Made by a program: the position numbers and the translations under genes. Source: a virus. Taken from it: a DNA stretch of 42,466 nucleotides. The stretch is taken from IMG/VR virus record IMGVR_UViG_3300002514_000061, positions 1 to 42,466 of that record. One strand, 5' to 3'. Shown here one piece after another: positions 26,743-42,466 of this stretch; position 1 is the stretch's first letter, and every line of letters starts with the position of its first letter. A model generated the notes under the pieces. It worked only from the letters and a program-made list of their open reading frames with translations, was not told the origin of the DNA and ran no database searches.

Positions 26743-27348
26743 TCAAAGCGTTTCCTTCCGCAATCTTTCTGCGTCCAGTTCTTTATAGCCTTCCTTGGCT
26801 GCGTCTCCGCTGCGCCTAGAATTTGTTCGCTGCTTGTAAAGCTGCAACAGTTCGTTGGCCTCACCTACGGGGTAGGTCAGGAGAACATACACCCGAAAGA
26901 AAGTATTGTGGGGAAGTATCTCCATCTCCTTCACGCTGTACCCTGCCACGTTCACCTCGCGCATGATGTTCTTGGTTACGCGCTCCGTGTCTTGCAACGT
27001 GGGCGGGGCCATGCCCTTCCCAGTTTCCGTGACGTAGTTCTTCACCTGAGAACTCAGCCGCCCTTCAATGCGGTCAGCCAGTGTACGCTTGGCGTTCAAG
27101 ATGCTCTTGTCGATTGCCAGTTGCAGATCGGGGGATGTCCCGCTGCCTACTGAGTGGATAGCGTTCTCCGATTGGGGCAGTTCAGTGAACCAATCAGGTA
27201 GCTCCTCAATGGTATTTGATATCATCTCCCGACGCTGCTCGCGCTTTTCTTCCTGTTTCTTGAGGAAGGCTTCTGGAGATCCGGGCTTTGGTGTTGAGCA
27301 CCCCCCCAAGATCGCAATCAAACATGCAGTTCCAATTTGTTTTCTCAT
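26743..27348 (-). CDS. LPP20-family outer-membrane lipoprotein
   Basis: A 201-residue lipoprotein. The N-terminus has a signal with lipobox LGGC (cysteine at residue 17), so it should be lipid-anchored in the envelope of a Gram-negative host. The body matches the LPP20 pattern: an early ELPDWFTELPQSENAIHSVG, then DLQLAIDKSILNAKRTLADR with alternating Ala, and a late strand (TFFRVYVLLTYPVGEANELL). The residue after the lipid Cys is Ser, which favours outer-membrane sorting. It lies late in the leftward recombination operon. A phage-encoded LPP20 protein suggests host surface remodelling or exclusion of other phages, which is inference. Confidence 0.8.
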   Translation of the reverse strand: MRKQIGTACLIAILGGCSTPKPGSPEAFLKKQEEKREQRREMISNTIEELPDWFTELPQSENAIHSVGSGTSPDLQLAIDKSILNAKRTLADRIEGRLSSQVKNYVTETGKGMAPPTLQDTERVTKNIMREVNVAGYSVKEMEILPHNTFFRVYVLLTYPVGEANELLQLYKQRTNSRRSGDAAKEGYKELDAERLRKETL

Positions 27349-28878: not shown

Positions 28879-29682
28879 TTATCTAACTAAGCGGTATGCC
28901 TTCCTCACATAGCGCTTCTGGTTGTTCGGTATCTCCATTAGCTTCAAGTTAAAGTCTTCGATGGAGTATTCCTCTAGCAGTGCTAGCTTCTGCGGCGTCG
29001 TAAGGACGTGGATCACTTCCTCTATCTCATTCCCTGACAAGTCGGCAGGAAACCTAGCTACTATGGAATACTTATCCCCGATTGGGATTGGAGTTCTCCC
29101 TGTGATCTTACTATCTAGGTCAAACTCATTCGGAAAGATCAGCGTTAGTTTGTTCTCGTGATCCTCCAATAGAATGTTGACAAACATTTCTTGTGTCGGG
29201 TCCACGGTGATGACCAGCGGATCGCCATCTCGAAGCAGGGGATGAGACAGGTCCACCCGCACGTCGAAGTTCGGATCGGATGGTTCTGATCTTGAGGTGA
29301 CCCGTGCTTCCAGTATTACTCTGCACACTCTTTGGTCCCGTAGGTTCTCCGTCACCCTTACTGTTCGGTCACGGATGCCACTGATGAGACCGTCCAACAT
29401 CGACCAAGTGAAGGTGTGGATCGGGCAGTTGACCCTATCACCCTCTTCCTGACACGACATGAATGTATCTGATGAGACGTACTCCCCACTAAATGACTGA
29501 ATAGCATTGAGCTTTGCTCTGCTCTCTGCCTTCCGACAGGCTTCCGCTTCTGTGATCTCAGAATGAATCACATAGTCACCCTTGCCGTAGACCCATTCAT
29601 CAAAGACCATGGGCTGTGCATCTGGTGTGTTAAGATCTAACACCAGACGCAACAGCCCTATTCCGACACTCAGATATTCCAT
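28879..29682 (-). CDS. FlgT-N/LPP20-like plus DUF4384-like envelope protein
   Basis: 267 residues. A short hydrophobic N-terminus (YLSVGIGLLRLVLDL) may be a signal peptide, although a weak one. Residues about 25-130 resemble the FlgT-N/LPP20-type domain ('acting on a string of Ala': ITEAEACRKAESRAKLNAIQ, with paired cysteines in FMSCQEEGDRVNC). Residues about 150-240 look like DUF4384: DGDPLVITVDPTQEMFVNIL, then LTLIFPNEFDLDSKITG, and IPIGD. In bacteria, DUF4384 and LPP20-type proteins occur together in envelope or flagellar-base contexts. A second LPP20-family gene sits two genes downstream. It overlaps the upstream HTH gene by 13 bases. Confidence 0.68.
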   Translation of the reverse strand: MEYLSVGIGLLRLVLDLNTPDAQPMVFDEWVYGKGDYVIHSEITEAEACRKAESRAKLNAIQSFSGEYVSSDTFMSCQEEGDRVNCPIHTFTWSMLDGLISGIRDRTVRVTENLRDQRVCRVILEARVTSRSEPSDPNFDVRVDLSHPLLRDGDPLVITVDPTQEMFVNILLEDHENKLTLIFPNEFDLDSKITGRTPIPIGDKYSIVARFPADLSGNEIEEVIHVLTTPQKLALLEEYSIEDFNLKLMEIPNNQKRYVRKAYRLVR

Positions 29683-37393: not shown

Positions 37394-37575
37394 GGTGATT
37401 GTTCCTTGTTCTGGACTGCTCCGTAACAATTGGGCAGTTGGGTTTGGCGAACCGGGTGACCGGTCTTGGATTCATAGAGGTAACACCACGCCAGATATCT
37501 CTGACCCTGGGTGTACAGGTGGGGGTTGGCAGCTACGTGAATAGCCGCCTCCCGCCAGTTGCTTTCCCCGCTCAT
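37384..37575 (-). CDS. Small unknown protein
   Basis: 63 residues, start overlapping the upstream stop (ATGA). Features: NWREAAIHVAANPHLYTQGQ, then a Trp/Tyr-rich stretch with two cysteines (RYLAWCYLYES, QLPNCYG). No signal peptide or membrane segment. Operon membership and overlaps support it being expressed; function not recognised. Confidence 0.55.
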   Translation of the reverse strand: MSGESNWREAAIHVAANPHLYTQGQRYLAWCYLYESKTGHPVRQTQLPNCYGAVQNKEQSPWN

Positions 37576-38546
37576 AACTGTTTCATCATGTTGCGAGCGA
37601 TGCGGTTTCTCAGTAGGGAGTAGGCACGCTTTGCGCTGGTGCCTGTACCGTGTGCCTTGTTAGGGTTCACGTAGTCACCCGTGAAAGCGAGGTATCGTTT
37701 CACAGGCTCGAACGAACGGGTATCATGCGAGTATGAACCGTCACGGCCAAAGGTCTCAAGCGCATGAAAGCACACGATCTTGATCCCGTGATCAGTCGGT
37801 TCCCCGTCGATCTCAGTCATCACGTCTTCCGCTGCGAGAACAAGGTATTGGAAGGTTGATGTGCCGTCTGATTTTTCCGAAACCTTTTCGAGAAACGGCG
37901 GCGATACCTGTCGTGAAGCCGTCCCGGTCTGAGCCGTCGAGTCTTTCCAATCCATCAACCGATTGCCAAACAAGGGCATGACGTGGGTAAAAAAATTGGA
38001 ACTGACCTCGACTTGAAGTTTAGATTCGGAGCCGTATTTTTGATGAGAAAAAACAAACGCCGGGCGATCCCCCAATTGAGGACCCTCTCTGCGATCATCA
38101 GGCGGGTTCTCTAACTCTGTGCCGACACCAGCCATCGTGAAGCCGTTGACCTTCACGCGATCCCGCCACCCATTCAAAACATCACTGCGGATCATGCGCA
38201 TGCGCTTTTCCCAGCGGCCTAAGAACGTGCGGAACACTGGCTCAAGATGCACACCCCGGCGCGTCTGATTGATGGCGGTATCCTCACGAGAACGGCGGCG
38301 GTAACGTCTGATCATCTCGTGATAGCGAGACAAGGCCTTGTCAAATTCCTGTAGCTCGAAGTCGCCGCTGATCTTTTCGAGGTAGGTGCGTGCGGTGTAC
38401 GTTCTCAGGTCCTCGTCAGAGTCGAGAATGGAATCGCCATTTGGAAAAGGCACAAACGGACTTACCTTTCTGGTGGAGTGCTCCTGAATAAACAGGCACA
38501 AGGCATCCAGGCCAGCCTTGTTCTTTTGATAATCATTGTAATCCAT
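37572..38546 (-). CDS. 324-residue unknown protein following the MoxR-VWA triad
   Basis: A 324-residue soluble protein. The N-terminus is helical (EFDKALSRYHEMIRRYRRRS at about 67-86). The middle has a beta-type region, and the C-terminal half contains FQYLVLAAEDVMTEIDGEPT, HGIKIVCFHALETFGRDG and SFEPVKRYLAFTGDYV. I do not recognise a family. A GNRA hairpin sits immediately before its start and no clear ribosome binding site is visible, so its translation may be controlled. Genetic linkage to the MoxR-VWA genes suggests a substrate or partner, which is inference. Confidence 0.6.
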   Translation of the reverse strand: MDYNDYQKNKAGLDALCLFIQEHSTRKVSPFVPFPNGDSILDSDEDLRTYTARTYLEKISGDFELQEFDKALSRYHEMIRRYRRRSREDTAINQTRRGVHLEPVFRTFLGRWEKRMRMIRSDVLNGWRDRVKVNGFTMAGVGTELENPPDDRREGPQLGDRPAFVFSHQKYGSESKLQVEVSSNFFTHVMPLFGNRLMDWKDSTAQTGTASRQVSPPFLEKVSEKSDGTSTFQYLVLAAEDVMTEIDGEPTDHGIKIVCFHALETFGRDGSYSHDTRSFEPVKRYLAFTGDYVNPNKAHGTGTSAKRAYSLLRNRIARNMMKQL

Positions 38547-38586: not shown

Positions 38587-39873
38587 TTAGTTGAGGTGAA
38601 TGGTCTTGCCGAAGTCGGCGGTGCGAGCGGTGGTCGATACCCAAAGCACCGGATAGTCCGGCTCATCAGGCATCGAACATTCGAGGTCGGTCAGATAGAT
38701 AAACGAGTCGACTTCGATCTCGTTCTCATAAACGTAGTCGAATGGTGGTCGGAAGTCGGTACCGCCGCCGCCGTACCGGCCAAGGTCTTGCTGATCAATC
38801 GAGGCCGGATCATCATACTCATCAACGTGGGCGATGCGTGTGTCGCAATAGATCACGGTGACTTGTTCGGCGTCCACGTCTTGGCATACCGACTTGGCCT
38901 CCGACATGAGCGCAGCATACTCATCTTGTGATACGCTGGCGCTGGTATCGACGGCGATCACGATATGACCGACGCCCTCACGTATGCGGCGCGGCGCAAA
39001 GATACCGCGCTGCACCCATTTTTTGTCAGCACGCCGCCAATCGTAGCGGTGGTCGGAACCCTTACCCAGAAACCGGGCAAGCTCGTTACGCCAATCAACC
39101 TTGGCGTCCCGCAAGTCATCAACGTAGGCGGCAAGGGAACCGGGCAGCTTACCTTGAGCCTTGGCGATCTGCGCAGCGTTTTGAACGTCGGCCATAAGCT
39201 CCCGCTCCATTTCCGCAATCTCTTGGGCATCAAGAGGTTCACCGTTGTCACCCTCAGCGTCGATCACAACTCCGGTACCCGTGTCGTCGGCGAAAGGATC
39301 GCCGCCACTTTGCGGGGCACCATCATCACCGCCGCCCGTGTCGCTATCATCGCCGTCACCTTGCGGGGTATCATCGTCACCGCCACCCGGCTGGGGTGAT
39401 GTGGGTTGCTCCTGAGCAAGCTCGTCGGCCAGAATCTCAGTCGAATATTCAGACCGGTCCCGCTTCAGATCACCGACAGCGCTCCAATCAAGAGCGCTAG
39501 CCGGTAGCGACTTGCTATCCTTGCGGAGCAAGTCATTGATGATCACGTCACCGCAGATATTCCATAACTTGGGATCACGAGAACCCCGTCGCAGATGGTG
39601 GAAAAATATCTTGTGATAAACCTCGTGGGCAAGCACCGCTTGCACCTCGTGATCCGATAACGTCAGCGCGAAGTCGGGATTGATATAAAGACTCTTGCCG
39701 TCGGTTGCCATGGTCGGCAGCGTGTCCGTCCATACCGTCGGCATTTGGATCAGCATTGCAGCGGTGAACGGGTCCGTCATCTGCAATTTGATCTTGGCGC
39801 GAGTGACGTGCCGCACCGCCTCAGCAGACGGCTCGACAACCCCATCATTTAATTGTGATACAAGTGAACTCAT
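38587..39873 (-). CDS. VWA-domain protein with N-terminal HExxH metallopeptidase-like domain (DUF2201 type)
   Basis: 428 residues from ATG 39873, with GGAGG six bases upstream, inside the end of the previous gene. N-terminal domain: VLAHEVYHKIFFHH with H83-E84-x-x-H87 and a later NICGDVIINDLL (about 105-116), as in the VWA-like metallopeptidase DUF2201 family. A strongly acidic Asp/Gly/Pro linker runs about 155-210. The C-terminal VWA-like domain has the MIDAS start D309-T-S-A-S313 and later GGGTDF and LTDLE. It is encoded two genes after a MoxR AAA+ ATPase; MoxR and VWA proteins work as chaperone pairs (RavA-ViaA, CbbQ-CbbO types). Confidence 0.85.
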   Translation of the reverse strand: MSSLVSQLNDGVVEPSAEAVRHVTRAKIKLQMTDPFTAAMLIQMPTVWTDTLPTMATDGKSLYINPDFALTLSDHEVQAVLAHEVYHKIFFHHLRRGSRDPKLWNICGDVIINDLLRKDSKSLPASALDWSAVGDLKRDRSEYSTEILADELAQEQPTSPQPGGGDDDTPQGDGDDSDTGGGDDGAPQSGGDPFADDTGTGVVIDAEGDNGEPLDAQEIAEMERELMADVQNAAQIAKAQGKLPGSLAAYVDDLRDAKVDWRNELARFLGKGSDHRYDWRRADKKWVQRGIFAPRRIREGVGHIVIAVDTSASVSQDEYAALMSEAKSVCQDVDAEQVTVIYCDTRIAHVDEYDDPASIDQQDLGRYGGGGTDFRPPFDYVYENEIEVDSFIYLTDLECSMPDEPDYPVLWVSTTARTADFGKTIHLN

Positions 39874-39875
39874 TT

Positions 39876-40784
39876 TCAACCTCCGAAAAAACCAGCAAGG
39901 CGATCAGTGATTTCCGACGCCTCAGATTGCACAACCTTGACCACCTCAGCGTTCGAGGGGTCTTTGAATTCCGCCACATCGTGGCGGAGCAATTCGCTGC
40001 CCTTGATATCATCGACAAGGGCAGCAAGATCAGGATCACCAGCAACATTCAGCGCCGGTAAGATGTTCACGAGGTCGCCCAGGTTAGTGATCATCGTGTC
40101 GTATAGACGGCGGTTCGCCTCTGTCTTATTCTTACCGCCAGCCTTGCGAACCTTAACCGACTCGTAACCGTCGAGGCACGTAGCGATATGCGAGACCGCC
40201 TTGTGCAACCGCTCGAACGTGTGACGGGTAGCACTCCGCAGCAAGTCGGCGTTGTCATCGTCGATTTCCGCACGTATCTGCGCGGCCTTATCGTCAACGA
40301 TCTTGGCATAGAAGTTCGCGCCAGTTGGCACGTCCCGCGCCCGCCATTTGAATTCATACATGGATTCAAGATCGGCGTAGCGTAGGTAATCGTCTTCGCG
40401 GAACATGCCGTTCAGTTGCTTGCGGCGTTGTTCGATTAGCTGGGGTAGCTTCCCGGCCAAGTCGGAAACGGCGGTATTAAACCGCCGCTTGTGATCATCC
40501 ATGGTGGCCATGTATTGATCGAAAAGTTCCACGGGTAACAGGCGATAGGTGCCATCCCATGGGAGGGTCAACCGCTCGTGGTCACCGCGTGCCGCACGCG
40601 CCGCACGCTGCGGTCCGTCAACCATGCGCGGATCAAGCAAGTGCTTGTCATACTTGCCAGCGTTGTGGCTGGCAGCATGCTCCGCGTTGATCTTGTCGGT
40701 TACGTCCCGATCTTTGCGCGTGAACCCGGCGCAATTGATCTGCAATGTTATGAGCATCGCGTTCTCTTGGATAATGTTTTCCAT
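39876..40784 (-). CDS. Unknown third component of the MoxR-VWA operon
   Basis: 302 residues from ATG 40784 (GGGGAGGG upstream, within the end of the ATPase gene). Mostly helical and charged: DRDVTDKINAEHAASHNAGK, LPWDGTYRLLPVELFDQYMA, and helices with SATRHTFERLHKAVSHIATC. The C-terminus reads VVQSEASEITDRLAGFFGG. No domain recognised. It lies between the MoxR ATPase and the VWA gene with almost no spacing, so it is probably an adaptor or substrate. The first 15 coding bases are identical to those of the ATPase gene. Confidence 0.65.
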   Translation of the reverse strand: MENIIQENAMLITLQINCAGFTRKDRDVTDKINAEHAASHNAGKYDKHLLDPRMVDGPQRAARAARGDHERLTLPWDGTYRLLPVELFDQYMATMDDHKRRFNTAVSDLAGKLPQLIEQRRKQLNGMFREDDYLRYADLESMYEFKWRARDVPTGANFYAKIVDDKAAQIRAEIDDDNADLLRSATRHTFERLHKAVSHIATCLDGYESVKVRKAGGKNKTEANRRLYDTMITNLGDLVNILPALNVAGDPDLAALVDDIKGSELLRHDVAEFKDPSNAEVVKVVQSEASEITDRLAGFFGG

Positions 40785-40788
40785 GTTC

Positions 40789-41838
40789 TCAGCCCTCCCC
40801 AATGAGGTTAGATGTTTCGATCAGGATATCGGTGAATCCTGCGGTTGATATTTTCTTGCCAGGATCACCCGCCGCTTCGTTCCGACGTAACAGCGCGGAA
40901 ACAGCAACCGAATGATACTCAGGCGGCAAGCGCTTGATGTATGCGGCGCATGCTTTGGCGGTTTTGTTGGTGACGGAGGCAATCAAGCTCCCGATCATGG
41001 CGTACCGCACGTCGGCCTTCTCAGGTACCGGTGCGGCATCGGGATTGGCGAATACCTCCGACGGTGACACAAGGTCCCGCCAAATGCGCAGGAACCCGGT
41101 GAACTTCGCCTGTTCACCAACGCCAATGGCACCGGCAATCATTGGCATTTCGATTGCTTTGGGAACCTCCGCCTTGATCACGTCGGACACTGCGACCCAT
41201 GTGCGAGGGCAGGGGAACGGCGTGCCGTCGGCGGCGTGGCGGTGCAGCGCATCGGGAAACTGGGTCAGGTACGTGGTGACTTCAGGTGCTACGTCGATCT
41301 TGGCGAAGTGTGCCAGCGTCGGATCAAGCTCCGCCTCAACAGTCATAATGGTAAAGCGCGAGATTTGATGCTCCGGTATCGACTTCACTGCGGCCTTGTC
41401 CGACTTGCGGTTACCGTTCGCAATGATCAAGCAATCCTCAGGGAGTCGGTGACCGGCCACGCGCCTATCCCAATTTACCTGAGCCGCAGCCTTTTGAACG
41501 TCGATGTCACATTGGGGGAATTCCTCAAATATGATCACCGTTTTCTTGCCTGACTGAGCGGCGTCAAAAACCCGCTTCGCCCAATCGGGTAATAGCTGGG
41601 ACATGACGTCACCGACTTGGGTAACCCAGCCTGTTACTTCAGATGGCTGATAGTTGCACAAGTTAACAGTGATCACTTCCCAGCCTTCCTCCCGTGCGAC
41701 TTGAACCGGTACTTGTGATTTGCCGACACCAACGGGACCCAAGATCAAAAGCGGGTAACCGTCGATGCGGTTTATTTGAATGTCCATTGCGGCCCGGATA
41801 ACGGCGGGCAAGTTGGTCATGCTGATAATGTTTTCCAT
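40789..41838 (-). CDS. MoxR-type AAA+ ATPase
   Basis: 349 residues. Walker A GPVGVGKSQ (G34-K40-S41), Walker B VIIFEEFPQ (E105-E106, with Glu in place of the usual Asp), sensor-1 region LIIANGNR (N141), and a downstream QISRFTIMTVE (R161) with the arginine typical of MoxR-family ATPases. It probably uses ATP to remodel or activate a partner, here the VWA/metallopeptidase-like protein encoded two genes downstream. First gene of the leftward operon, preceded by a long non-coding leader. Start chosen at the ATG with GAGGATATC upstream. Confidence 0.88.
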   Translation of the reverse strand: MENIISMTNLPAVIRAAMDIQINRIDGYPLLILGPVGVGKSQVPVQVAREEGWEVITVNLCNYQPSEVTGWVTQVGDVMSQLLPDWAKRVFDAAQSGKKTVIIFEEFPQCDIDVQKAAAQVNWDRRVAGHRLPEDCLIIANGNRKSDKAAVKSIPEHQISRFTIMTVEAELDPTLAHFAKIDVAPEVTTYLTQFPDALHRHAADGTPFPCPRTWVAVSDVIKAEVPKAIEMPMIAGAIGVGEQAKFTGFLRIWRDLVSPSEVFANPDAAPVPEKADVRYAMIGSLIASVTNKTAKACAAYIKRLPPEYHSVAVSALLRRNEAAGDPGKKISTAGFTDILIETSNLIGEG

Positions 41839-41879
41839 GATATCCTCATAAGCGTTTCGGCGGTGCTGCGCCTCATCAG

Positions 41880-41898
41880 TGCCCCAGCAACAGGGGCA
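41880..41898 (-). promoter_or_regulatory. Leader hairpin TGCCCC/GGGGCA
   Basis: A perfect 6-bp inverted repeat, TGCCCC and GGGGCA, with a 7-base loop, about 40 bases upstream of the MoxR start on the transcribed strand. Could influence mRNA stability or translation; not followed by a U tract. Confidence 0.4.
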
Positions 41899-42135
41899 GA
41901 CACTACTTGTTCAAATGTGGCCGGTTATTCTTTCCCACCGTAAGGGCACGGGCTGAACCCTACTTTGTGCAGACTACCGGGGCTCTAGGCTTGGGCGTTA
42001 TTCGCCTCATCGTTACCGGATCAAAGCCATCGTTCACAAAGCATCGCTAGGCTTGCTAGGCCTGAGTTTCACAAGTAGCTGGAACCTCCTGTTCAAAATT
42101 TGCGACCTCGTTGCCGCAGTCATCTTGTCTCATAC

Positions 42136-42145
42136 TCTGATCAGA
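42136..42145. promoter_or_regulatory. Perfect 10-bp palindrome in the leader (possible operator)
   Basis: TCTGATCAGA reads the same on both strands. Together with the GGTSAC copies 45-90 bases further right it may form binding sites for the small HTH or RHH regulators encoded elsewhere in the window. Short palindromes arise by chance, so support is weak. Confidence 0.25.
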
Positions 42146-42466
42146 ATAGCAACACCTTTATTCAGGAATGTTCCATATTATTTGGGGTCACCATTCCCAG
42201 CCTTCTAGCCGGTCACTTGATAGGTGACGTATGGGAGCGGGAAATCTTACAACATGATCTATTCTGAAGAGTCTTTATATATAGGGTCTATGCAAGGGGT
42301 ATCTGAGGGGTCTGACGCGGCCCGGCCTAGCCCTTGGCATGCTCTAAGAAGAATGTTCTTGACATTGGAAAAGTGTAACAAGATCAAGCACTTAGGTACC
42401 CATAGAGAAAGTGTGGTCTTATTTAGCCTGTAAGTTATTGATATTAAAAGCGGAATCCTGATAGGC

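Follow-up and report, generated by a model that had tools for sequence, protein, structure and literature searches.

A Midasin-like ATPase, a predicted DUF3150-superfamily protein and a metallopeptidase-VWA protein are encoded by a conserved gene trio in phages and plasmids

Results

A Conserved Trio Built on a Known Pair

Three adjacent genes in a viral genome, encoding an AAA+ ATPase, a middle protein that we place in the DUF3150 superfamily on predicted grounds and a metallopeptidase-VWA protein, form a unit that is conserved and more general than the first-pass annotation of this DNA supposed. The ATPase-VWA pair is already known; what is new is the fixed DUF3150 third protein in many other phages and plasmids. 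We favor, with a probability of about one half, a reading in which the three proteins act as one AAA+ remodeling machine of mobile elements, with the DUF3150 protein as adaptor or scaffold and an early nucleoprotein complex as the likeliest substrate.

We analyzed a complete 42,466-base virus record, hereafter the window. Inspection of open reading frames (ORFs) placed the trio on the minus strand, where the ATPase gene (40789..41838; 349 aa) is followed by the middle gene (39876..40784; 302 aa) and the VWA gene (38587..39873; 428 aa from its ATG). The three motif-bearing ORFs that had been described as lying within bases of each other are all there, with gaps of 4 nt between the ATPase and middle genes and 2 nt between the middle and VWA genes. 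The middle gene encodes 302 aa from its ATG and 308 aa from an alternative TTG. For the VWA gene, the ORF and its HEVYH and DTSAS motifs had been called correctly and the start had not. A TTG at 39879 would give 430 aa; the most likely start, judged from the sequence, is the ATG at 39873, since it is preceded by GGAGG at 39884-39880 and relatives use the same start. These genes are far from chance ORFs, as they have strong Pfam and PHROG matches and homologs of the whole trio occupy well above 100 further loci.

The trio is apparently first in its operon, since ORFs ahead of the ATPase gene in relatives mostly run in the opposite direction, with a non-coding leader of ~600-800 nt in between. 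Replication and recombination genes, which encode a primase-helicase, an exonuclease and an ssDNA-annealing protein, lie further downstream of the trio, and the structural genes are at the opposite end of the window. Directly downstream of the trio is a gene for a 324-aa protein (37572..38546, minus strand) that is without a Pfam or PHROG match. Its position right behind the VWA gene is always kept in relatives, at identities of 78% (L006), 33% (L011), 29% (L014) and 28% (L016), and this protein could be a fourth trio member in its phage group. Elsewhere in the window, genes for an LPP20-like lipoprotein and a DUF4384 protein (26743-27348 and 28879-29682, both minus strand) flank a 439-aa gene without a family assignment.

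The ATPase Resembles Midasin

The ATPase matched PHROG family phrog_1297 (ATPase) at 2e-64 and gave weak hmmscan matches to AAA, AAA_5 and other Pfam models. As AAA_3, the MoxR model of Pfam, gave no hmmscan match up to E=1, we refer to the protein as MoxR/Midasin-like and not as a certified MoxR. When the family profile was compared with the PDB, the AAA domains of Midasin were closest (1e-31). The hallmarks of MoxR-type AAA+ proteins are all present: Walker A, GPVGVGKS(Q); an acidic Walker B, VIIFEE(F); the sensor-1 asparagine, in ANGN; and the arginine finger region, ISRF. Each of these motifs is conserved in relatives.

The Glu-Glu Walker B had been flagged as unusual. FEE is indeed present and is confined to the clade of the window and its nearest relatives, but the motif varies among FEE, LDE, LDD and FDD across the family: other phages mostly carry FDD, LDE or LDD, and bacterial copies carry LDD or LDE. 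Because both positions stay acidic, we regard FEE as the mark of a clade and not as evidence of new chemistry.

The VWA Protein Carries a Zincin-Like Domain

Two Pfam models, DUF2201_N (PF13203; 3.5e-44, 151.9 bits) and DUF2201 (PF09967; 2.9e-22, 79.5 bits), matched the VWA protein above their gathering scores. An N-terminal zincin-like domain with HExxH (HEVYH) is joined by an acidic, glycine-rich linker to a C-terminal VWA domain with a complete MIDAS (DTSAS, GGT and TD), so that both domains, the HExxH and the DxSxS-T-D MIDAS expected of a DUF2201 metallopeptidase-VWA protein are found. Most relatives keep HExxH and MIDAS. Some, such as the Variovorax protein, have lost HExxH, indicating that proteolysis is not universal in the family. 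In PHROG, the family of this protein (phrog_1314) is labeled HNH endonuclease, a misleading name that our analysis brings to light, as it is at odds with the domain content and has been copied into many phage records.

The Middle Protein Is a Predicted Divergent DUF3150 Protein

The 302-aa protein had been listed as of unknown family, a label that profile searches and structure prediction replace. The window protein itself gave no match to PF11348, the DUF3150 model of Pfam, up to E=1 with HMMER, and Pfam matches to AlkZ-rel, DUF222 and MnmE fell below cut-offs and were set aside as chance. Among the 61 members of its family, 24 matched PF11348 at E<=0.1, with a best E of 2.4e-6. An AF2 model (pLDDT 95, pTM 0.87) predicts a small beta unit with long helices, and its best match in BFVD is a phage DUF3150 protein (TM 0.82, E 1e-18). 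From the matches of its homologs and the predicted fold, we infer that the protein is a divergent branch of the DUF3150 superfamily. A PDB fold search with the same model returned no solved relative (best E 0.13).

Synechococcus phage MinM2, a DUF3150 (PF11348) carrier, has all three trio genes in the same order as the window, and differs in having small genes inserted among them. Mycobacterium phage Dylan was rejected as a DUF3150 carrier, since its match was a weak one of fold only (sequence E 0.93). We found no mention of DUF3150 in the literature searched.

The Three Genes Are Linked

Loci were gathered by the middle protein alone and afterwards searched for the ATPase and VWA genes. Counting was limited to loci flanked by 3 kb or more on each side, and the counts are of raw loci, in which the same species or contig may recur. 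Both partner genes lay on the same strand as the middle gene in all 49 viral loci, so the trio does co-occur in other phages, and in 48 of the 49 bacterial loci. The order was ATPase-middle-VWA in 85 of 97 loci; the other orders found were middle-ATPase-VWA, ATPase-VWA-middle and VWA-ATPase-middle, revealing that linkage survives rearrangement. The catalytic motifs of the ATPase and the MIDAS are conserved across the trio family. In two loci from acidobacterial metagenome-assembled genomes (L117 and L120), the trio is preceded, at a distance of 1.3 kb, by an additional and divergent ATPase-VWA pair (~140-2580).

One phage contig (L016) encodes the ATPase and middle protein as a single 674-aa frame. 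This is a single instance in which an assembly quirk is possible; no alternative frame yields two separate proteins. When the fusion was modeled with AlphaFold, the two halves were placed with low mutual confidence (pTM 0.54). Direct contact between the ATPase and the DUF3150 protein is thus unsupported, and we dropped the interface read from the fused protein. The linkage counts, together with this natural fusion, bear out the proposal of a fixed middle protein within one conserved unit, and the counts rule out the middle gene as an orphan or passenger.

N4-Like Phages Carry the Pair without the Middle Gene

Homologs of the ATPase were present in 729 phage records and those of the VWA protein in 507, compared with three for the middle protein. 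The ATPase-VWA pair of the window is homologous to gp24 and gp25 of phage N4, which are among the few core genes of N4-like phages, have no known function and are transcribed in the middle phase (PMC4193335, PMC2784036, PMC7650795). The suggestion of an undescribed phage machine therefore does not hold for the pair. Like the window, N4 has adjacent genes for an ATPase and a DUF2201 metallopeptidase-VWA protein in a non-virion region, and in Schitoviridae the two are a core pair. Unlike the window, it is without a DUF3150 gene, its Walker B is LDE instead of FEE, and its ATPase is only ~21% identical. Even with the 61-member profile, no middle gene was detected in N4 or three other pair-carrying phages.

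As N4-like phages have the pair alone, the pair in its basic form can do without the middle gene, and we view the trio as a variation on something already known. The proposal that the middle protein might prove a passenger, missing from related phages that retain the other two genes, is thus answered in two parts: the middle gene is almost always with its partners where it is found, but N4-like phages keep the pair without it. The gp24/gp25 pair is among the few near-universal N4-like genes without an assigned function. A fixed third protein with partition-type cassettes nearby narrows that question to a process shared by mobile elements, and the trio offers a testable complex.

Trios on Plasmids and near PRTRC Genes

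Trios were also present on a Variovorax megaplasmid and on a Burkholderia conjugative plasmid, where the trio lies right before T4SS genes. A Niastella trio has a ParB-family neighbor. The PRTRC cassette consists of ThiF- and ParB-related genes, and in an Acidobacterium (L106, 33-2412) PRTRC_B, PRTRC_ThiF and PRTRC_E are directly upstream of the trio. PRTRC_ThiF was found in 20 of 45 records, all of them bacterial genomes or a plasmid; by subtraction of positions, 17 of these 20 have it on the contig and strand of the middle gene, at a distance of 3.4-14.1 kb upstream. None of the phage records scanned contained PRTRC_ThiF. The proximity of PRTRC genes in bacteria points to a mobile-element function.

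A Proposed Remodeling Machine and Its Alternatives

In the machine that we propose, the MoxR/Midasin-like ATPase would form a ring that supplies mechanical force, as in its family. The DUF2201 protein would dock on the ring or the substrate through its MIDAS, as do Midasin and the VWA domains of MoxR partners, and its HExxH domain may cut the substrate or keep hold of it, with zinc-dependent cleavage a possibility. Strict linkage and the one fusion suggest that the DUF3150 protein could serve the machine as a dedicated adaptor or scaffold and determine which substrate it takes. The substrate would most plausibly be the element's own early nucleoprotein complex, for replication, transcription or partition, and not the virion; we prefer it because the trio appears to head its operon, adjoins replication and recombination genes and has partition-type neighbors. 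Linkage, the fusion, the conserved motifs, the Midasin profile match, the mobile contexts, the status of the pair as a core N4-like module transcribed in the middle phase and the replication neighbors all argue for such a machine. Against it stand the pTM of 0.54, the N4-like phages without a middle gene, the losses of HExxH and a link to replication that consists of proximity.

Several known systems share features with the trio. RavA-ViaA and other MoxR-VWA pairs are described as following the same principle of an AAA+ ring with a VWA partner (PMC10585395); by that description, the trio differs in the DUF2201_N zincin-like domain of its VWA partner, its fixed third protein and its ATPase without an AAA_3 match. 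Midasin provides the closest solved ATPase sequences and has a MIDAS, which in the trio is on the partner. Unlike the trio, it is one giant chain that works on ribosome precursors and has neither a peptidase domain nor DUF3150. The ternary VMAP conflict systems also combine MoxR, VWA and a third protein, and share a possible role in conflict (PMC7159879), but the third protein of the trio is DUF3150-like, no fused variable effectors were seen, and the trio is carried by phages and plasmids. In a comparison based on Pfam models, neither the middle protein nor its homologs matched VMAP-type domains.

A role in counter-defense or host takeover, in which DUF3150 or the MIDAS recognizes a complex of host immunity or transcription, the ATPase strips or unfolds this complex and the zincin-like domain cuts it, would fit carriage by phages and conjugative plasmids, the position of the trio first in its operon and the occurrence of MoxR-VWA modules in predicted conflict systems (PMC7159879). 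We consider it unlikely, as no trio protein had a credible match among the PADLOC defense-library profiles, no anti-defense neighbor was seen, and the pair belongs to the core of N4-like phages that infect widely different hosts, unlike typical anti-defense genes with their fast turnover. Less probable still is that the trio acts as a chaperone when virions mature or tails are assembled. A MoxR-VWA pair of an archaeal virus has been cited for tail assembly (PMC7159879), and in phage RPP1 virion-protein genes lie near the gp24/25 homologs (PMC4193335); however, the trio is also on plasmids, which have no virion, and in the window it sits beside replication genes and away from structural genes. 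Least probable is a PRTRC add-on in which a ThiF-dependent system tags proteins and a Midasin-like ring then removes or processes them: it would account for the 17 genomes with PRTRC_ThiF upstream and for the Acidobacterium cassette, but cannot be the general function, given that no scanned phage record had PRTRC_ThiF.

A Predicted Hammerhead Ribozyme Precedes the ATPase Gene

Ahead of the ATPase gene, the 5′ leader contains a predicted type III hammerhead ribozyme (41849..41906, minus strand) that ends ~10 nt before the start codon. Its RF00008 score of 36.3 bits, for which E is 4.6e-6 when the leader is searched and 2.6e-4 when the window as a whole is searched, falls short of the gathering score of 48.5. 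A strict structural scan and folding identified the type III core (CUGANGA/GAAA/NUH) and three helices, and the element is kept in relatives with compensatory changes; the stability of the window copy is not unusual against shuffles. Cleavage is predicted after GUC, between 41899 and 41898, ~60 nt upstream of the ATPase ATG. In a 59.8-kb relative, the hammerhead ahead of the ATPase gene is the only one found in the contig. Other trio phages have a hammerhead in the same place, of type III in L101 and of type II in L069, L095 and L096.

A biased motif, drawn from trio phages, picked out 102 ribozymes, of which 31 were immediately followed by MoxR. In a control scan with a generic pattern for type II, MoxR was downstream of only 3 of 126, which refutes a specific hammerhead-moxR law and argues that hammerheads are general phage operon punctuation. 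A lineage-specific preference for the ATPase gene is possible. Hammerheads close to phage gene starts, and their use as operon punctuation, have been described, and in haloviruses HF1 and HF2 one lies 13 nt before an early gene that encodes a helicase (PMC3088659); in the window, the gene that follows is instead the ATPase gene of the trio. The literature searched held no report of a hammerhead paired with this gene. A more specific and tentative version of our proposal is that the trio is a three-protein AAA+ unfoldase-peptidase common to phages and conjugative plasmids, with DUF3150 as substrate adaptor, and that in several phage lineages the leader hammerhead would set the dose of the ATPase.

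Upstream of the hammerhead, a conserved non-coding leader (41907..42250, minus strand) aligns in L008, L010 and L011. Its consensus fold (-28 kcal/mol) has little covariation, and it is possibly a structured RNA. In L015 (1000-1525), the leader is partly swapped for a different block between very similar flanks; the two may be alternative structured RNAs. On another viral contig (L473, 8402-11317), seven matches to the type II hammerhead pattern occur within 3 kb, at a spacing of ~300-900 nt.
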